IMG/VR virus record: IMGVR_UViG_3300027861_000047
Coordinates: 1-47,709 of that record
Reading direction: 5' to 3' (one strand)
DNA: 47,709 bases
From: a virus
This document shows, piece by piece, positions 5,709 to 47,709 of the stretch. The stretch's first letter is position 1, and the number at the start of each line of letters is the position of its first letter. The notes beneath the pieces were generated by a model. It was not told the origin of the DNA. It made no database searches and was given only the letters and a program-made list of their open reading frames with translations. The position numbers and the translations under genes are program-made.

Positions 5709-6560
5709 ATGAAGAACAACGAACCACAAAAAAGCCTTTTCTGTTTTCTACTCAATGAGGACGGCGGCGAGCTTATCGCTAAACTATCACCGGCACCCGT
5801 TGCCTCTGTACTACTTGCGCTTACAGGTGTGTGCAATGGTGACATGGTAGTTAAATGTAGTCAAACCACACTGGCGAAAAACTTAGGCATGCACCGCGGG
5901 ACGTTGCATCGAGCGGTTAAGGCGTTGGAGTCTGCCGGGCTAATTGTAAAGCTCGGGCGGTCAGAGTATCGGGTTTTGAGTGTTAGCGAAATGCGTCAAA
6001 CGTTGCACCATGCAACATTCAGGGCTCAAACGTTGCACCATGCAACATTCGAAGGGGTAAACGTTGCACCATGCAACATTCAGCCGCAAACGTTGCACCA
6101 TGCAACATTCGGAAAGCCGGAAAGCGGTGATGACACTTCTTATAATATACTACCTCTACGAGGTAGTAGTAGTGCGCGCATAGGCGCACGTATAGCAACA
6201 CCACCCACCGAGCAAGAGAAAATCGTGCGACTCGAAAACATTATCGTCGAAAAGTTGGGGCGGCAGGCTTGGGACCGCTCCACAAATTGGGCGGAGCTAT
6301 ACAGTAGAGCAAACCGAGACATCGAGTTAATCGAAGACGCGGTTATCGCCTACCAGGAGAAAGTTATCGAGGCGGGGCAGAATCACAGTTTTACGAGGCT
6401 TCTAAACTTCGTTAAGCGAGAGCGCATAAGCAGAGAGAAGCAAGAGCAGAAGGCAAGCCCGACGCGCCCGGCATATCGCCCGGCGGAATTACACGGGCAC
6501 GCAGCCAAGGCAACACAAGACGAGCTTGAAAGGTTAAGCAGGTTTTTAGATGGATCATAA
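5709..6560 (+). CDS. Replication initiator with winged helix (lambda O-like), containing the origin
   Basis: A 283-residue protein. Residues about 25-85 look like a winged helix (SQTTLAKNLGMHRGTLHRAV, then a wing with LIVKLG). The middle is a low-complexity linker whose DNA holds four iterons (5998-6110). The C-terminal ~100 residues are charged and helical and could contact the helicase. A DNA-binding initiator with iterons inside its own gene, followed directly by a helicase gene, is the arrangement of lambda O-ori-P. The last 11 bases overlap the helicase start, so the two are coupled. A plain transcription regulator is the alternative, but the embedded repeats argue for initiation. Confidence is good for DNA binding, moderate for the origin role. 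Confidence 0.8.
   Translation: MKNNEPQKSLFCFLLNEDGGELIAKLSPAPVASVLLALTGVCNGDMVVKCSQTTLAKNLGMHRGTLHRAVKALESAGLIVKLGRSEYRVLSVSEMRQTLHHATFRAQTLHHATFEGVNVAPCNIQPQTLHHATFGKPESGDDTSYNILPLRGSSSARIGARIATPPTEQEKIVRLENIIVEKLGRQAWDRSTNWAELYSRANRDIELIEDAVIAYQEKVIEAGQNHSFTRLLNFVKRERISREKQEQKASPTRPAYRPAELHGHAAKATQDELERLSRFLDGS
5998..6110 (+). repeat. Four iterons forming a putative replication origin
   Basis: Four copies of a 23-bp direct repeat start at 5998, 6028, 6059 and 6088 (spacing 30, 31 and 29 bp). Each contains the perfect inverted repeat GTTGCA-CCA-TGCAAC, flanked by AAAC and ATTC. Spacing near three helical turns would place bound dimers on one face of the DNA. The second-to-third step of 31 bp shifts the reading frame, so copies 1, 2 and 4 encode the same peptide (QTLHHATF) while copy 3 is read in another frame. 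The DNA, not the peptide, is what is conserved. Confidence 0.88.
6138..6168. other. AT-rich stretch and 9-bp hairpin beside the iterons (possible unwinding site)
   Basis: Right after the iterons comes a short AT-rich stretch (TTCTTATAATATAC, from 6137) and then a perfect inverted repeat TACTACCTC-TAC-GAGGTAGTA (6148-6168). Iterons, then an AT-rich segment, then an inverted repeat is also the order in the lambda origin, so this is the likely duplex-opening side. The TATAAT could also act as a -10 box, though no convincing -35 box precedes it. Confidence 0.5.
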
Positions 6561-9448: not shown

Positions 9449-9667
9449 GCATGATTTACGGACAGAAAGGTTTACACTTGGAGTCAGATGTAGACTTTTT
9501 GGCTCATTGGGACACGGGCTGTTAAACTTTCTCACCGATGTTCAAGTCTTGCTCCCCTAAGCGAAATGATTTATTTTCCACCGTGTGCTTTTTTACGCTT
9601 GTAAAAGACGCAAGACGTATATATAACTAAGAACAGGTAGAGAGAACAACGCAAACGGAGAAACAAG
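9449..9667 (+). promoter_or_regulatory. Non-coding stretch ending in early promoter P1
   Basis: The first ~140 bases hold nothing I can name. Then comes a promoter: -35 TTGTAA (9599-9604), 17-bp spacer, -10 TATAAC (9622-9627). A perfect inverted repeat TTTTAC-GCTT-GTAAAA (9591-9606) overlaps the -35 and is a likely operator. The transcribed start (TAAGAACAGGTAG) is nearly identical to that of the promoter at 13380-13408. GGAG lies 9 bases before the ATG at 9668. Confidence 0.7.
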
Positions 9668-9847
9668 ATGAAGAAAACGCAAATACAAGAGGCAAAGTTT
9701 TGGTTCGAGAATGGCGATTTTGCAGGCGTCGCGGTTTTGGGTGAGGGCGAAAATGTTGACGTCTGGTTTTGCTATAGTCGAAGCGATATCTTTCTAGGTA
9801 CGGCGAATTATCTGACAGGGTGCCGAAACTTAATCATCGGGTACTAA
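9668..9847 (+). CDS. Small hypothetical early protein
   Basis: A 59-residue protein, first gene after promoter P1, with GGAG upstream of the ATG. It is mixed hydrophobic and aromatic (AKFWFENGDF, VWFCYSRSD) and looks like a compact alpha/beta domain. No homologous family is recognised. A hairpin with a UACG loop follows its stop. Confidence 0.6.
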   Translation: MKKTQIQEAKFWFENGDFAGVAVLGEGENVDVWFCYSRSDIFLGTANYLTGCRNLIIGY

Positions 9848-9856
9848 CCATTAACC

Positions 9857-9887
9857 CGCCGCCCTACGGGGCGGCATTTCAACGGAG
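9857..9887 (+). other. Conserved hairpin with UACG loop, copy 1
   Basis: Seven-base stem GCCGCCC/GGGCGGC closing a UACG tetraloop (9858-9875), followed by CATTTCAACGGAG (9875-9887). The same element occurs at 13718-13748 with a compensatory base-pair change, which supports an RNA-level function. It lies between a small gene and the ribosome site of the next gene, with no U-run, so it is not a standard terminator. mRNA stabilisation or processing is possible. Confidence 0.7.
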
Positions 9888-9897
9888 AGTTTAAGGA

Positions 9898-11049
9898 ATG
9901 AATCCACAAGAAAAGATCAAGAGCGATTACGAGGCATATGGATGCACGGGCGAGTATGACAGAGACCGCGCCGGCGGATGGCGGTCGGTCGCGCCGCATT
10001 ACGAAAGAATATCTTCGAATGGTCTTGCGCTGCTCGACCGGTCTTATCGAAATCAAGTTATGTCGGGAGTATTACCGGTTGACGAGGAAATGTCGAGCCT
10101 GGACTCGTTCGGCATGAAGCCTGTCGAGTCTGGTTGGGTAATGCTCGAAGTCGTAGACGACGAGATAGGGTTGTCACGGCTGAATAGTGCTCTAGCCGAG
10201 CATCGGCCAATGAGGTCCGAGCGAGAAGCGTACTCGGCTCATTTTTTGACGGTTACTAGGTGTTGGCAGGCTCAGGGCGCACCGTTGGTCAATCTTGGTC
10301 CGGTGATGACTGGAGAGCTAAGGGCGCTCGCCAAGTCGTATGAGTATCGAGATGATTTCATTCCGAGCTTGATGGAAAAGCTGCCATTTAAGTTTTTCTA
10401 TCTAAAGTGCCACATGGAGAAGACTGGCGATCATCTTGGTGATCACATTGAGGGCGCGTACATATGCAATTCGAAGCACAACGGCAGAGATTCTCTTTGC
10501 GTATTGATTGACGACGGATTCACCCTTGACCCGTGGCACTGCGTATCAAACAACGACGGATATTCGTTCATGGTCGGGCATAATAACGTCGCGTTTACCG
10601 AGCTTTCTAATCTTGTGCCATATGGCAACAGGCGAGCAAAAGCAGGATGGATGCTTACGGTGCTGGATGGGCTTTTGCGCTATCTTGACTCTGTTAACCG
10701 AGAAGTTGAAGACCCTACGCCAGTGATAAGAGCGGCACTCAATAGCGGCAAAAAGTCGAAGATTCGCAAAGCGCTTAATCAGATGGTGGGCAAGCGTAAA
10801 ATCTGGATCGAGCCGACGTTAGAGCGCAAGGCAGTAGAGCAAGGCATCACAGGCGCAAAGCTATCGAGCGGGCACATTAGGCGCGGGCACTTACATACGT
10901 ATTACACTGGAGCAAAGCTAGACGCTGACGGGCTCAGGATTCCCAAGGAGAAGCGTAAGAAGGTTGTGAAGTTCGTTGCGCCGACGTGGGTAGGGCCGCG
11001 CATGATGACCTCCGAGCCGAAGGAATACGGAATAAGGGCGAACCAATGA
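9898..11049 (+). CDS. Hypothetical 383-residue early protein
   Basis: I do not recognise a defined family. The N-terminal two thirds are mixed alpha/beta with several Cys/His (CHMEKTGDHLGDHIEG, DPWHCVSNN). The C-terminus is basic with SGHIRRGHLHTYY and then VKFVAPTWVGPRM. RGH-type motifs followed by a W-x-P ending occur in a group of mobile-element proteins that includes AcrVA2-like sequences; I cannot confirm membership. Base composition is more AT-rich than the neighbours, hinting at transfer. AAGGA precedes the ATG, and its end overlaps the exonuclease start (ATGA). Confidence 0.7.
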   Translation: MNPQEKIKSDYEAYGCTGEYDRDRAGGWRSVAPHYERISSNGLALLDRSYRNQVMSGVLPVDEEMSSLDSFGMKPVESGWVMLEVVDDEIGLSRLNSALAEHRPMRSEREAYSAHFLTVTRCWQAQGAPLVNLGPVMTGELRALAKSYEYRDDFIPSLMEKLPFKFFYLKCHMEKTGDHLGDHIEGAYICNSKHNGRDSLCVLIDDGFTLDPWHCVSNNDGYSFMVGHNNVAFTELSNLVPYGNRRAKAGWMLTVLDGLLRYLDSVNREVEDPTPVIRAALNSGKKSKIRKALNQMVGKRKIWIEPTLERKAVEQGITGAKLSSGHIRRGHLHTYYTGAKLDADGLRIPKEKRKKVVKFVAPTWVGPRMMTSEPKEYGIRANQ

Positions 11050-11909
11050 AGTACGTACAAACAAAAACAATCGGCGGGACGGCGGTGTCATCCATTCTCG
11101 GGCTCAACCCGTGGTCGGGACCGTGGGATGCTTGGGACCGTATTGTAAACGGCACCACCATCGAGCCAAACGAGGCGATGGAGCGCGGCACACGGCTAGA
11201 GGGACCGATTGCAGAGATAGCGCAAGGCGTGCTCGGCATTGACCTTATAGAGCCAGCAGAGACGACCACAATCATTGACGGTGTGTTTAGTGCATCGGCG
11301 GACCGCTTCGGGTACGTAGACGGCAAGCGGCAAGCCATAATCGAAATCAAGACGGCGAGCAGCTACGCAACGATTGACCCAGTTCCAAATCATTATTGGC
11401 TACAGGTGCAGCATTACTTATGGGCATTCAATCTTGACCGTGGCGTACTGGTAGCGCTTCAAGCCTTCCCAGAGGTGTTTAGAATGCTCGACACGGCGGA
11501 CGATGTAGACTTCGCGCTAACACGCAAGGCGGCGAATCTGGTTATCCACGAGATAGAGCGCGACCCGCGATATGGCGAGCACACGATTCCAAAGCTCCGC
11601 GACTGGTTCCAGCGTCACATCGTAGGCGGCGAGGTTCCGGACGTAGACGGCTCGAAGGCTTGCCGCGTGGGTTTGTTTGGCTTGCACGAAGAACGGACAG
11701 CAGAGAGCGAAGCAGAGCCCGAACTCGACGCATTGCTTACGCTTCGGCAGGCGGTAAAGAATACGGAAGCAAAGCAGAAAGAGCAGCGCGACATAATCGA
11801 GAACCAAATACGCGCGAAGATGGCGCACCGGCGCAAGGTGTCAGGCTCTGACTATTCGTGTACGCTATCTCGAAACAACCGGCTAACGTTTAAAGAGGCT
11901 ACAAATTAA
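11046..11909 (+). CDS. YqaJ-type (lambda exonuclease-like) viral recombinase
   Basis: A 287-residue 5'-3' exonuclease that makes 3' single-stranded ends for annealing. Landmarks: RGTRLEGPIAE (E52), SADRFGYVDG (D86), IIEIKTA (E100, K102) and WLQVQHYLW, the PD-(D/E)XK order of the YqaJ family. The C-terminal ~90 residues are a coiled helical tail. I start at 11046 because ATGA overlaps the previous stop; a longer frame from 10986 lacks a ribosome site. Its natural partner, the ERF annealing protein, is encoded about 20 kb away at 31019-31762. Confidence 0.9.
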   Translation: MKYVQTKTIGGTAVSSILGLNPWSGPWDAWDRIVNGTTIEPNEAMERGTRLEGPIAEIAQGVLGIDLIEPAETTTIIDGVFSASADRFGYVDGKRQAIIEIKTASSYATIDPVPNHYWLQVQHYLWAFNLDRGVLVALQAFPEVFRMLDTADDVDFALTRKAANLVIHEIERDPRYGEHTIPKLRDWFQRHIVGGEVPDVDGSKACRVGLFGLHEERTAESEAEPELDALLTLRQAVKNTEAKQKEQRDIIENQIRAKMAHRRKVSGSDYSCTLSRNNRLTFKEATN

Positions 11910-11910
11910 C

Positions 11911-12450
11911 ATGGAAGGGACAGCAAAGATGAAAGCTAGAGAGATTTTGGATTGCCCGTACCCAGATGCGGAGTATGTGCACATAGTTACGGTCATCGAC
12001 AATATAGGGCACCGAGACGATGAGCCCGAAGTGTACACGTTGACCGATGAATATATTTTATTGGACCGCCACCAGGCTATAAGATGGGCGACTGAGTTGT
12101 TTTTGAGTAGGCTGCTTGAGTGGGACTCTTTTAACTGTGAAATCGGTGACCGTGATCTTGATGATGAGTTTTTGGAAATCTTAAACAGCACACCAAAGAG
12201 CGAGCTAATGGAGAAGGTCTTTTCGCTTATTTGGGACAATAGTAGAGAGATCTTTAAAGTAAGCAATGCCGAGGTTTCTTATGAAATTAGAATTGAAAAA
12301 AGACCGGTCGTTACGGACGAGTTCACGCACGCCGAAGCATATGCGGCAAGGTTTAAGAAGCAAATTGAACACGGTCGCGCCTACGATGAGCGTATGAGCG
12401 CAATCTATAGGAAGGAATCCGAGGAGTTGCTTAAGATGAGCAAAGCTTGA
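11911..12450 (+). CDS. Hypothetical acidic protein
   Basis: A 179-residue acidic alpha/beta protein with no recognisable motif, no cysteine cluster and no membrane segment. The start may be the ATG at 11911 or the one at 11929, which has AAGGGA 8 bases upstream and looks better. The sequence is AT-richer than flanking genes, suggesting recent acquisition. It lies between the exonuclease and the HNH gene. Confidence 0.65.
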   Translation: MEGTAKMKAREILDCPYPDAEYVHIVTVIDNIGHRDDEPEVYTLTDEYILLDRHQAIRWATELFLSRLLEWDSFNCEIGDRDLDDEFLEILNSTPKSELMEKVFSLIWDNSREIFKVSNAEVSYEIRIEKRPVVTDEFTHAEAYAARFKKQIEHGRAYDERMSAIYRKESEELLKMSKA

Positions 12451-12461
12451 AGTGTAAAGCA

Positions 12462-12911
12462 ATGGAGCGGATACGCAGGCAAATCGAAAACGCGGATACG
12501 CTTGAGTGCATCGAGTACGCCGGAACGGGCGCGGCGAAAGGCGGATATGGGCGAATCACAATCCGCAGCCGTGGCAAGGCTTACAGCTTTGCGGCTCACC
12601 GTCTGGCGTACGAGCTAGCTCATGGCGAGCTACCCGAGGGGCATATAGTGCGGCACGCTTGCCATAATCCGAAATGTATCAACCCGGCACATCTTACCAG
12701 CGGAACACACAAGCAAAACGCGGGCGACAGAATGAGGGCGGGGCGATGCGCGCCACAGAGGGGCGAGAATAACGGCAACGCCAAAACATCCACACAGGAC
12801 CGCGAGCAGATACGGCTACGCAGGCAACGCGGCGAAACGTTGAAAAGCATTGCAGCGGACTACGGGCTACACTTTTCGACGATTTCGGCGATAGCTCGCA
12901 GCAGTAACTAA
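12462..12911 (+). CDS. HNH endonuclease (homing-type) with C-terminal HTH
   Basis: A 149-residue protein. It begins with a GYGRI strand typical of phage HNH proteins, then AAHRLAYEL, then the HNH core RHACHNPKCINPAHL with zinc-type Cys/His and the metal-binding histidines, and GTHKQNAGDR. Residues about 125-145 (TLKSIAADYGLHFSTISAI) form a helix-turn-helix for site choice. It resembles free-standing homing endonucleases. A TTG at 12447 overlapping the previous stop is an alternative start; neither start has a good ribosome site. Confidence 0.88.
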   Translation: MERIRRQIENADTLECIEYAGTGAAKGGYGRITIRSRGKAYSFAAHRLAYELAHGELPEGHIVRHACHNPKCINPAHLTSGTHKQNAGDRMRAGRCAPQRGENNGNAKTSTQDREQIRLRRQRGETLKSIAADYGLHFSTISAIARSSN

Positions 12912-12965
12912 GCCTCGCACAATCGCGCACATTCTGACACAATGTCGCCAAACGTGGGGGCATGT

Positions 12966-13337
12966 ATGAAATATCCGATATTCTACGAATACAGCAAAGT
13001 TCCGGCATTCCTCTCGAAGTTTGCGCCAATTAAAATCTATGCGATTAGCTTCGGGTGGTGGGTCTGGTGCCGCGGACCAGTCAACACAAGAGTCAAGACT
13101 CACGAGCGCATACATTACCTCCAACAGCGAGAACTCGGCTTCGTTCCTATGTGGGCACTCTACCTTCTTTCGTGGCTCGTGCTCTTCGTCTACTACTGTG
13201 GCGACGGGGCGAGGGCGTACCGTTGCATTGCGTTTGAACGAGAAGCGTACGACAACGACATCGACCCGCACTACCTCGATGACCGCAAACCCTTCGCGTG
13301 GATTCGCTATATTCTCGACCCCAGCCGCGAGCCTTAA
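12966..13337 (+). CDS. Membrane-associated zincin-like protein (HExxH)
   Basis: A 123-residue protein with KTHERIHYLQQREL, an HExxH motif (H46, E47, H50), followed by a hydrophobic segment (about 62-78, MWALYLLSWLVLFVYY) and then FEREAY, which could give the third zinc ligand (E91 or E93). This looks like a small zinc metalloprotease-like fold anchored in the membrane. The ATG at 12966 is preceded by GGGGG; the ATG at 12942 has no ribosome site. Activity is not proven and substrate is unknown. Confidence 0.65.
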   Translation: MKYPIFYEYSKVPAFLSKFAPIKIYAISFGWWVWCRGPVNTRVKTHERIHYLQQRELGFVPMWALYLLSWLVLFVYYCGDGARAYRCIAFEREAYDNDIDPHYLDDRKPFAWIRYILDPSREP

Positions 13338-13371
13338 CCGCACATAAAAAGCAGGCATTAAAAAAAGTGAA

Positions 13372-13451
13372 CCTTTTACTTGATTAATACGAAAAGGGTC
13401 TATATAACTAAGAACAAGTAAGGGAAACAAACAAACAACGGAGAAAACAAA
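13372..13451 (+). promoter_or_regulatory. Early promoter P2, twin of P1
   Basis: -35 TTGATT (13380-13385), 17-bp spacer, -10 TATAAC (13403-13408), then TAAGAACAAGTAA, nearly the same as at P1 (9622 onward). An inverted repeat CCTTTT/AAAAGG (13372-13377 and 13392-13397) brackets the -35. GGAG precedes the ATG at 13452. P1 and P2 look like copies of one cassette and are probably controlled together. Confidence 0.72.
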
Positions 13452-13709
13452 ATGAGCAACTTAATCGACATCACAGAAATGACTGACAGTGACATTGATA
13501 ACCTTTTAAACCCTATTGATGATGATCGCGGCTCTTACTTGAAAGACCTTGACCAGCAGATTGAGGGACTCAAAGAGGCGTTAGAGCCTCGTAAAGACAG
13601 CAAGCCGTGGGGCTACAATGGCGTTCACGATATCGAAAGAAAGTACATGCGCGAGGAGCTTGAGGTCTTATTGAGAGAGCGAGCAAGCGCAGCAAAGAGC
13701 GCACGATAG
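13452..13709 (+). CDS. Small acidic hypothetical protein
   Basis: An 85-residue protein, first gene after P2. The N-terminal 30 residues are Asp-rich (EMTDSDIDNLL, PIDDDRGSY); the rest is an amphipathic, charged helix that may form a coiled coil. There is no family match. The UACG hairpin follows the stop, as after the P1 gene. Confidence 0.65.
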   Translation: MSNLIDITEMTDSDIDNLLNPIDDDRGSYLKDLDQQIEGLKEALEPRKDSKPWGYNGVHDIERKYMREELEVLLRERASAAKSAR

Positions 13710-13717
13710 CCAAAACT

Positions 13718-13748
13718 CGCCGCTCTACGGAGCGGCATTTCAACGGAG
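13718..13748 (+). other. Conserved hairpin with UACG loop, copy 2
   Basis: Stem GCCGCTC/GAGCGGC with loop UACG (13719-13736), then CATTTCAACGGAG, the last bases of which give the ribosome site of the gene at 13757. Compared with the copy at 9857, one C-G pair is a T-A pair: both sides changed together. Confidence 0.7.
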
Positions 13749-13756
13749 GATACAGA

Positions 13757-13960
13757 ATGACGAAGCACGATCAACATGTAACGGGGCACACTTTGACCAC
13801 ATGCCCAGACCACGGCACGCGATACTACGCCCACGAAGGCGGGTGCGAAGATTGCGAGTTTGAACATGAAGCGCTGATTGATGACATAAACAAGCGGCTC
13901 GAAAGCCTAAGCCTCGCGCAGCTTGACAAACTGCTCGAATGTTTGGTGGGTTTGAACTAA
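13757..13960 (+). CDS. Small zinc-ribbon-like protein
   Basis: A 67-residue protein with GGAG 10 bases before the ATG. C/H spacing TTCPDHGTRYY, then GGCEDCEFEH, suggests one zinc site, followed by an acidic amphipathic helix. It could be a small adaptor or anti-host factor. Function is unknown. Confidence 0.65.
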   Translation: MTKHDQHVTGHTLTTCPDHGTRYYAHEGGCEDCEFEHEALIDDINKRLESLSLAQLDKLLECLVGLN

Positions 13961-26860: not shown

Positions 26861-27238
26861 ATGCACATCATTCGAGACATTCAGATCGTAGCCATGGCGC
26901 ACGCTTCGGTTAGTTTTGGCGTAAGTGGTTGGACTACTTTGGACCTCGGGACGGTGGGACCAAACCTAACAGAGAAGCAGCCAGGCGAAGATATCGGCTC
27001 AATCTTAATCGAAAACAAATCTTCGAGCGCATCGTCGGTACACTTTGTTTTTAAGAATGACCCCGGCGCGGACGTTTCGTATTCTCACGGCTTCGAGATT
27101 GGCGCGGGAGGTGTCTTGCAAGAAGGCACGGTTAAGAACTTGCGATATGTAAGTTTTAGAGGCGCTACCGGCTCGGGTACAGTAAAGGTAATTCTAAGGA
27201 GCTACAGGACAGCAGACCAAGCGCCTTGGGATAGCTAA
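26861..27238 (+). CDS. Small beta-rich virion protein, unknown
   Basis: A 125-residue protein with GGGG before the ATG. Alternating strands rich in Gly, Ser and Val, with no cysteine, suggest a beta sandwich. It lies in the structural operon before two fibre-like proteins. It may be a head fibre or neck component. Confidence 0.65.
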   Translation: MHIIRDIQIVAMAHASVSFGVSGWTTLDLGTVGPNLTEKQPGEDIGSILIENKSSSASSVHFVFKNDPGADVSYSHGFEIGAGGVLQEGTVKNLRYVSFRGATGSGTVKVILRSYRTADQAPWDS

Positions 27239-27255
27239 CAACGGAGGGACAGCAA

Positions 27256-45380: not shown

Positions 45381-47709
45381 ATGGCACTGAATAAGATTTC
45401 AGAAGAAGTAATTGAGATTCGGGTCGATGGTGCCAAAGAAGCAGAGCAAGAAATCGACGGACTTAGCAAGGGGCTAAGGGATGTCGAGCAAAGTAGCAAG
45501 AAAGCCGACAAGTCAACCGCACAGGCTTCGCAGGGGTTCTCGAAGCTACAGGCAAGCATTACCACGGCAGGCGCAGCCGTCGCAGGCTTTCAGGCGGCGA
45601 TGGCGGCAGCAGGCGCGGCGATGTCAGCAATCAAGGCGCCGGTTAACTTAGCGATTGAGTTTGAGACGCAGTTTAATCAAATCAAGACGCTCAACAGCGA
45701 CATTGGCGACGACTTGCGAGACAAGCTGCTCGACTTAGCGAAGCGCGTGCCGCAGACCGCCGGCGATATCACTTCGGCGGCTTACCAAGCAATCAGCGCA
45801 GGGATAGACCCCGGTCAGGTTACCGAGTTTCTCGAAGCGGCGAGCAAGTCAGCCGTCGCCGCAGGTGGCTCGCTTACTGAGTCGGTCGAGCTATTGACGG
45901 CAGGCGTTAACGCATTCGGCAAGCAGGGCGAAACGGCTTCGAGTGTTGCGGATAAGCTATTCGCAACCGTCAAGCGAGGCGTGACAACCATTCCAGAATT
46001 GAACGCGGTCTTCGGTCGTGCAGCGGCTACCGCTTCGAGTTACGGCATAGGGCTCGACGAGGTGCTTGGCGCGATTGCCACACTGACAAAACAGGGTTTG
46101 CCGACTGCCGAGGCAGTGACACGGGTCAACGCTACGATTAAAGAGTTAAGCCGCGAAGGTGGCACGGCTGCGAAGGCACTTAAAAAACAAGGCGTGCAAG
46201 TCGGCGTTCTAGCTCTACAGCAAAAGGGGCTCGTCGGTGTACTTGAAGACGTAAACAGAGCGACAGGCGGACAGGCGGACCAACTCGCAAAGCTATCAGG
46301 CAGGGCAGAAGCGGTCGGCGGAATGCTCGGGTTGACCGGGCGCAACATGGAAGACTTCCGAAGCACCGTGCAAGGCGTCAACACTGACGTCGGCGCAAGC
46401 GGTGAGGCTTTTGACGTAGTTAGTCAAGGCACACAGGGCACGATTGACAGCTTCAACAGCTTAAAAGAAGGCGTGATGCGAGAGCTAGGCGAGCAGACGT
46501 TGCCCGCGCTGAACGAGCTTTTAAAATCTCTTTCCGTTGCGATGAATGGCTCCAGCAATGCGGCTAAGGCTTTCGGCAAAGGGTTAGCAAGTATCATCAA
46601 AATTGGAACGCTAGTCGTCAAGAATATCGACATGATTGCGGCGTCGATGTCGGTGGCGTTCACTGCAAAATACTTGCCGGTCTTCATTGCGCAGTTAGGC
46701 AAGATGCGTGCGGGTTTCGTGGCATTTAATGCGATAGTCGCAGCGTCTGGCTCTACAACCGGGGCGGCTTATGGCCGCTTGCTCGTCGGCGGAATCGCTA
46801 AAGTGCTTTCGGGTCCAATGTTAGCCGGAGCGGTGGCGCTCGCAGTCGCCGGGGCGGTCGGTCTTGCGATGGAAGGTGCAGAAGAAAAGGCACGCGAGGT
46901 TCGAGAGGCACAGCGAAAGGAGTTCGCGCAAGACTTGAAAGACTTCCTCGCGTCGGAAGGTATAAGAGGGGACGCCATCGAGAAGCGTTTGAAGGGACAA
47001 GCGCGGCTTGCAGCATCCGACCAGCTAAGAATAAAGGCAGCGCGTGAGGCTGATGCGGGCAATAGAGATCTAGCCGCGGGTATTGTCGCGTTGACTCAGA
47101 AGATTGATGACAACAAGACCGGCTCCATTGATCTTGAAGCTCTATATCTTGAAAACAGTGAAGCCGCTCAAGTGCTAATCAAGACACTCGACACAAAGTC
47201 GACCTCTTACGGTGAAATTATAGCACAGCAGAACGAAGCGATCATTTCAGCAAAAAACCTAGAACAACAAAACACGGCGCTTAGAGTCGGCTCCGCTCAA
47301 CTGACAGCAGAGGAAAAAAAGGCTCAAGCAAATTTCCAGCAAAGTCAGTCCAAGGTGGCAGACTACGAAAACCAGCTAGACGCAGCGACAAAAAGCGTCA
47401 TAAGAGCGAAGGCGGCATTAGCGCAACTAAACGCAAACCAGCAAGTGAATCTCCAGCTTTACGGCAAAACCCCATTTATTAAAGCGGAAGCAGACCTAAA
47501 AAAGTACAGCAACGCGGCAGAAGAGGCAAACAAGGGCATCGCGATATTTAGCGTTGAAGTCGTAAACAATGAGCGAGCACTAAATGAGGCATCCGCAGCA
47601 GTTGCGAACAATCAAGTGCAAATTGAAAACAATGAAAAGCAAATAGCGGCAGCCACAAAGCACTACAAAGAAAACCAGGCGGCTATTGACAAGACGGTGA
47701 CAGCGTTAG
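45381..47709 (+). CDS. Tail tape measure protein, N-terminal part (runs off the end)
   Basis: 776 codons are seen, with no stop. Residues ~1-60 are a charged helix (DGAKEAEQEIDGLSKGLRDV), followed by the TP901 tape-measure core (about 85-250): LAIEFETQFNQIKTLN, ELLTAGVNAFGKQG-type and GLDEVLGAIATLTKQG motifs. A hydrophobic stretch (about 430-500) and coiled coil follow. From 46797 the sequence repeats the window start, so the gene continues at base 1. Start ATG 45381 is 5 bases after the chaperone stop. Confidence 0.9.
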   Translation, partial: MALNKISEEVIEIRVDGAKEAEQEIDGLSKGLRDVEQSSKKADKSTAQASQGFSKLQASITTAGAAVAGFQAAMAAAGAAMSAIKAPVNLAIEFETQFNQIKTLNSDIGDDLRDKLLDLAKRVPQTAGDITSAAYQAISAGIDPGQVTEFLEAASKSAVAAGGSLTESVELLTAGVNAFGKQGETASSVADKLFATVKRGVTTIPELNAVFGRAAATASSYGIGLDEVLGAIATLTKQGLPTAEAVTRVNATIKELSREGGTAAKALKKQGVQVGVLALQQKGLVGVLEDVNRATGGQADQLAKLSGRAEAVGGMLGLTGRNMEDFRSTVQGVNTDVGASGEAFDVVSQGTQGTIDSFNSLKEGVMRELGEQTLPALNELLKSLSVAMNGSSNAAKAFGKGLASIIKIGTLVVKNIDMIAASMSVAFTAKYLPVFIAQLGKMRAGFVAFNAIVAASGSTTGAAYGRLLVGGIAKVLSGPMLAGAVALAVAGAVGLAMEGAEEKAREVREAQRKEFAQDLKDFLASEGIRGDAIEKRLKGQARLAASDQLRIKAAREADAGNRDLAAGIVALTQKIDDNKTGSIDLEALYLENSEAAQVLIKTLDTKSTSYGEIIAQQNEAIISAKNLEQQNTALRVGSAQLTAEEKKAQANFQQSQSKVADYENQLDAATKSVIRAKAALAQLNANQQVNLQLYGKTPFIKAEADLKKYSNAAEEANKGIAIFSVEVVNNERALNEASAAVANNQVQIENNEKQIAAATKHYKENQAAIDKTVTAL
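46797..46923 (+). repeat. Terminal direct repeat, copy 2 (exact 127 bp)
   Basis: This is identical to bases 1-127 and in the same tape-measure frame; the copies part at the next base. Confidence 0.9.
46924..47709 (+). other. Divergent second allele of the tape-measure coiled coil
   Basis: Aligned with bases 128-907, this stretch shows high similarity at both ends (DLKDFLASEGIRGDAIEKRL, and AAIDKTVTALD at the end) and strong divergence in between, with a net +6 bp and no frame break. Clean in-frame divergence means both versions are functional genes, most likely from two co-existing phage strains. Confidence 0.75.

Follow-up and report, generated by a model that had tools for sequence, protein, structure and literature searches.

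The window analysed here, the whole 47,709-nucleotide stretch of an uncultivated phage record, encodes a DnaB helicase, an O-like initiator, a YqaJ/RecE-like exonuclease, an HNH endonuclease, a terminase, a portal protein and head genes. At two of its loci, a small gene behind a predicted promoter and leader is followed by a hairpin, a tail and a further gene (Table 1). In addition, the tail in front of the 383-aa gene can pair as a second stem with the Shine-Dalgarno sequence in its loop (9877-9894); this stem reads UUUAAAC-GGAGA-GUUUAAG in L012-L014 and, by inspection, has one mismatch in the window, and it is possible that it serves as a lineage-specific translation switch.

Table 1. Layout of the two hairpin loci in the window
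Feature	Position	Strand	Remarks
Sigma-70-like promoter TTGTAA-17-TATAAC	9599-9627	+	Predicted from sequence and synteny; same arrangement in G005-G008
Leader, CA-rich, AACGGAGAAACAAG at its end before ATG	9628-9667	+	Conserved across copies and in relatives
Small variable gene, 59 aa	9668-9847	+	No family match; other genes in its place in relatives
Hairpin copy 1, GCCGCCC(UACG)GGGCGGC	9858-9875	+	10 nt 3' of stop codon
Tail of copy 1, AUUUCAACGGAG	9876-9887	+	GGAG at 9884-9887 is the Shine-Dalgarno sequence for the 383-aa gene
Downstream gene, 383 aa, no assigned function	9898-11049	+	Hairpin in front in all four contigs seen
Sigma-70-like promoter TTGATT-17-TATAAC	13380-13408	+	Predicted from sequence
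Leader, AACGGAGAAAACAAA at its end before ATG	13409-13451	+	
Small gene, 85 aa	13452-13709	+	Missing from G007 and G008 at the corresponding place
Hairpin copy 2, GCCGCUC(UACG)GAGCGGC	13719-13736	+	9 nt 3' of stop codon
Tail of copy 2, AUUUCAACGGAG	13737-13748	+	GGAG at 13745-13748
Downstream gene, 67 aa	13757-13960	+	In G007 and G008, no hairpin; lies directly 3' of promoter and leader

Both hairpins read in the window sequence as the original prediction had described them: a 7-bp stem with a UACG loop and a C-G closing pair (GCCGCCC-TACG-GGGCGGC and GCCGCTC-TACG-GAGCGGC), each followed by the same tail, ATTTCAACGGAG. The exchange of one pair on both sides is likewise confirmed, C9863-G9870 of the first copy being T13724-A13731 in the second, a double change from C-G to U-A. 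The 31-nt elements fold at -17.8 kcal/mol (z -4.0; copy 1) and -15.7 kcal/mol (z -4.6; copy 2). Their 17-mer core, GCGGCATTTCAACGGAG, has an exact count of two in the record, with no further sites at up to three mismatches elsewhere in it. Stable-loop hairpins, defined by a 7-bp stem with at least six G-C pairs and a UNCG or GNRA loop, are far more abundant than chance: the window holds three, two of them being copies 1 and 2, compared with 0.13 expected (100 dinucleotide shuffles, maximum 1), and 16 occur across 11 records of the group (254 kb including the window), nearly all of which are the junction element. Rfam covariance models gave no match in the window at gathering score, nor any in 9550-13800 up to an E value of 1.

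Copies were collected from viral contigs by covariance model, pattern scans and protein-based scans, yielding a family of 17 (16 distinct) in related uncultivated phage contigs, the window included (records labelled G001-G012; the element sequence of G010 and G011 is that of G009). Every hairpin-bearing contig encodes homologues of window proteins, and most were found via a short RNA pattern. The covariance model search suggested by the original prediction, built from 12 training copies and run on 18 records, recovered copies beyond the training set in related phage contigs (G003:27584-, G003:4607, G012:34197, G012:37970 and a degenerate G012:14026-). The model for this small RNA element of an uncultivated phage group is clean and predictive. 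No close cultured relative of this group was found: the best terminase identity among cultured phages is 29%, to Vibrio phages, and cultured phages gave no match to the whole region (blastn) or to the 383-aa protein. A search for the host in GTDB genomes found no terminase relatives. Several further matches were rejected. Bacterial and archaeal genomes (257 Gb) hold 22 exact matches to GCGGCATTTCAACGGAG where about 30 are expected by chance, with model scores of at most 28 bits compared with 50-63 bits for the 12 training copies; four of nine viral matches (L004, L006, L008 and L011) lack the hairpin and lie at loci without protein match to the window phage, and matches from a GNRA pattern scan were for the most part due to chance.

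Pairing holds in 96.4% of stem cells across the 17 copies (16 distinct), compared with 40-56% when the partner is slid, and covariation reaches 0.246 compared with 0.085 in shuffles, with none of 500 shuffles equally high. Seven cells are changed on both sides where 1.3 are expected, including C-G/U-A and C-G/G-C changes; as copies may recombine, a compensatory pair at one site may reflect exchange of the whole hairpin instead of two separate mutations, though pairing is kept in either case. Stem variants include GCCGCCC/GGGCGGC, GCCGCUC/GAGCGGC, GCUCCGC/GCGGGGC and GUCGCCC/GGGCGGC. Loss of pairing in homologues, named by the original prediction as the observation that would speak against it, is mild and confined to three copies, with one mismatch each in G008 (A.G) and G009 (G.A) and two (both C.A) in G012c. 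Loops are limited to UACG, UUCG, GAAA and GAGA. On the coding strand each is closed by a C-G pair, and only on that strand are the loops extra-stable; the swapping of UNCG for GNRA tetraloops is a sign of selection on stability, not on sequence. With covarying stems, and with loops that replace one another only within the extra-stable tetraloops of the coding strand, the comparison of copies supports the proposal that the element acts as RNA. A scan call of a minus-strand terminator at 13718 was rejected: the A's upstream are not shared by the copies, and the loop read on the minus strand is not of an extra-stable type.

In 14 of the 17 copies, 7-12 nt separate the stop codon of the upstream gene from the stem (17, 28 and 108 nt in the others), and the stem is followed by AUUU or UUU in 16, the exception being AUUA in G003b. 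Every copy with a tail carries the Shine-Dalgarno sequence 7-8 nt 3' of the stem, and the downstream start follows 17-22 nt past the hairpin; in the copies of the training alignment, the AUUNNAACGGAG spacing is invariant. Two copies, G003:4607 and G012:37970, keep the hairpin and AUUU without a Shine-Dalgarno tail, ending in AUUUGAUC and AUUUGCAC respectively and running directly into promoter-like TTGNNN-18-TATTAT. The upstream gene is mostly small and usually begins with the AACGGAG ribosome site of the phage, and many copies have a promoter-like TTGNNN-17-TATAAC sequence and a CA-rich leader ahead of it. Downstream genes are varied (383 aa, 67 aa, YqaJ exonuclease, 214 aa, 102 aa and others) and in most copies have no promoter-like sequence of their own. 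When hairpin pairs are forbidden in folding, accessibility of the Shine-Dalgarno sequence stays about the same in most copies (exceptions: win2, 0.74 to 0.43; L009, 0.50 to 0.26; L012, 0.71 to 0.90). The original prediction had envisaged a processing or stability barrier that also presents the ribosome site. The element may act as such a barrier; presentation of the ribosome site as the main role is not supported, given the two copies without a Shine-Dalgarno tail, the fixed distance of the hairpin to the upstream stop codon and the lack of a general gain in accessibility in constrained folding.

Gene order differs between relatives. In G007 and G008, promoter and leader directly abut the 67-aa gene, without the 85-aa gene or a hairpin, whereas in the window the 85-aa gene and its hairpin are inserted between them; G001 has the same order of 85-aa gene, hairpin and 67-aa gene, with the promoter region off the contig. 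The 383-aa gene is preceded by a 59-aa gene in the window, a 146-aa gene in G006 or a 225-aa gene in G007 and G008, always with the hairpin between. The 146-aa gene (82% identical) followed by the hairpin occurs at two different places, one in G006 and the other in G003 and G012, and in G004 and G005 GNRA hairpins stand behind a 61/62-aa gene despite differing next genes. Genes placed directly 3' of promoter and leader lack the hairpin. Gene plus hairpin are most likely inherited and exchanged as one cassette. In this way, an exchangeable early gene would bring along its own RNA end and supply whichever gene comes next with a ready-made ribosome site.

The element is moderately likely to be an intercistronic RNA 3'-end element. 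The hairpin and short U-tract (AUUU/UUU) would close the transcript segment of the upstream, usually small early-promoter gene, probably as a leaky intrinsic terminator and possibly also as a block to 3' exonucleases. The upstream mRNA would then build up in a short, stable form, with some transcription continuing into the next gene, whose Shine-Dalgarno sequence is fused to the end of the element. We infer termination, end protection, read-through and the effect on expression from sequence. A primary role at the 3' end of the upstream RNA is most likely, because the hairpin and U's persist without the Shine-Dalgarno sequence, the distance to the stop codon is fixed and the hairpin comes and goes with the upstream gene. 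Leakiness is implied by the short U-tract and the gene behind the hairpin; as most next genes have no promoter-like sequence of their own, termination must be incomplete. The next gene matters as well, as is evident from conservation of the AACGGAG tail.

The short U-tract and marginal d-scores count against the terminator reading. AUUU tails have an nT of about 2.7 (elements 2.4-3.7), whereas two terminator-like hairpins in the window reach 4.1 and 5.2; d-scores of the copies straddle the threshold (-28 to +27), and a terminator scan of the window requiring at least five T's in eight did not report the hairpin sites on the plus strand, where the U's number 2-4. Weak terminators, even with two U's, still partly terminate T7 RNA polymerase (PMC8783025), and UUCG and GAAA tetraloops cap rho-independent terminators (PMC3972237). 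A near-identical hairpin lies a few nucleotides 3' of stop codons in at least two unrelated cultured phages, with longer U-tracts. In Acetobacter phage phiAX1, the core hairpin is followed by U5 (GGGCGGCUUUUU); in Escherichia phage Bas95, where the U-tract is U4 (GGGCGGUUUUCACAGGAG), the hairpin is followed by UUUUCACAGGAG, with the Shine-Dalgarno sequence of the next gene adjoining; and Pseudomonas phage D6 has AUUUAUUUC. As these matches have chance-level BLAST E values (0.6-8), they are read as convergence on a common terminator type rather than homology.

An unlikely alternative is that the element stabilizes a 5' end, an RNase cutting near the stop codon so that the hairpin caps and protects the downstream mRNA at a fixed distance from its Shine-Dalgarno sequence. 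The constant spacing to that sequence in tailed copies agrees with this, and T4 gene 32 mRNA provides a precedent, being cut by RNase E 71 nt 5' of the start codon and the most stable T4 mRNA (PMC3014915). However, spacing to the stop codon is nearly as tight, the two untailed copies have promoter-like sequence next, and genes directly 3' of promoter and leader have no hairpin. Slightly less probable still is a recombination boundary, kept mainly as shared DNA where gene cassettes are exchanged. A given downstream gene does occur with more than one upstream gene, and a given upstream gene with more than one downstream gene, the element marking the junction (the shuffled genes being 383-aa, 214-aa, 102-aa MAQFEE, 146-aa and 61/62-aa); the phage encodes a YqaJ/RecE-like exonuclease, and conserved boundary sequences have been proposed at phage mosaic junctions (PMC3029335). 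DNA homology alone, however, would favour identity, whereas here stems change in compensation and loops switch between stable classes, and the strand-specific choice of loop requires RNA. 

It is improbable that the element is a translational insulator, stopping upstream sequence from pairing with the Shine-Dalgarno sequence or uncoupling both genes: the invariant spacing in the training copies would fit, but accessibility is largely indifferent to the hairpin and copies lacking a Shine-Dalgarno sequence exist. There is a similarly small chance that the hairpin is a valve that withholds later genes until a phage factor, perhaps acting via the conserved leader, frees the polymerase, the first gene being expressed at once and units of promoter, leader, small gene and hairpin being repeated; this would resemble the N/tL1 logic of lambda, with the difference that several early promoters would use it and that it would be joined to ribosome sites. 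An operator for a phage protein is very improbable, since although conserved copies are dispersed near early genes, the loop and inner stem vary (UNCG/GNRA), leaving no constant features but stability and the flanking AUUU.

The element is most likely a terminator-like intercistronic hairpin of a broadly familiar kind, in moron-like cassettes, and is compact through fusion to the next gene's ribosome site. It shares with intrinsic terminators capped by UUCG or GAAA, including leaky ones in phage operons, a G-C stem, an extra-stable tetraloop, a site just 3' of the stop codon and U's directly after the stem, but has 2-4 U's followed by the fused Shine-Dalgarno sequence of the next gene, and a marginal d-score. 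C(UUCG)G hairpins were reportedly described in T4 mRNAs by Tuerk in 1988 (as cited in PMC3972237); they are likewise very stable UNCG hairpins in phage mRNA, whereas here related copies occur in one phage group with a common tail and GNRA replacements. The SAS/ESAS repeats of Cluster K mycobacteriophages are dispersed just 5' of gene starts in the non-structural gene region and include the Shine-Dalgarno sequence; about half have inverted repeats, and ESAS is 17 bp with variable spacers and RNA pairing not supported (PMC3203893). The window element is alike in its dispersal, its place 5' of gene starts with a Shine-Dalgarno sequence and its non-structural region, but covaries in pairing and has tetraloops; the 13-bp SAS repeat GGGATAGGAGCCC is not at the element, where the tail is ATTTCAACGGAG. 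Morons are promoter-gene-terminator inserts (PMC3029335), and here too an extra gene with a hairpin is present in one genome and missing in a relative, with promoter-like sequence in front. Unlike in morons, promoter and leader remain when the gene is missing (G007 and G008), and the inserted piece is gene plus hairpin.

Other features of the window were also observed. Four direct repeats of AAACGTTGCACCATGCAACATTC, spaced 29-31 nt apart and each containing the dyad GTTGCACCATGCAAC, lie at 5998-6112 inside the O-like initiator gene (5709-6560), and G007 has three dyad copies; by analogy with lambda gene O, they are likely replication-origin iterons. The contig ends are alike, with the matching parts about 46.8 kb apart throughout (1-327 and 46797-47123 at 85%, 836-907 and 47638-47709 at 83%, within 1-907 and 46797-47709); the genome may be circular and closed via a divergent strain, or a gene may be partially duplicated. 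A second class of leader before AACGGAG starts carries a small, apparently covarying hairpin (UGAGC-AACGGC-GCUCA, AAGC-AAUAAG-GCUU and GAGCC-AAUGAG-GGCUU), at sites upstream of 37732- in the window and at G003 3245+ and 28153-, G002 6510-, and G009 2016+ and 3778+. At about 27195-27255, a conserved stretch GGAGCTACAGGACAGC...GCGCC.TGGGATAACTAACAACGGAGG lies 5' of a late gene of 151-153 aa, and recurs in relatives at G003 17751+, G008 19103+ and G012 4487+.
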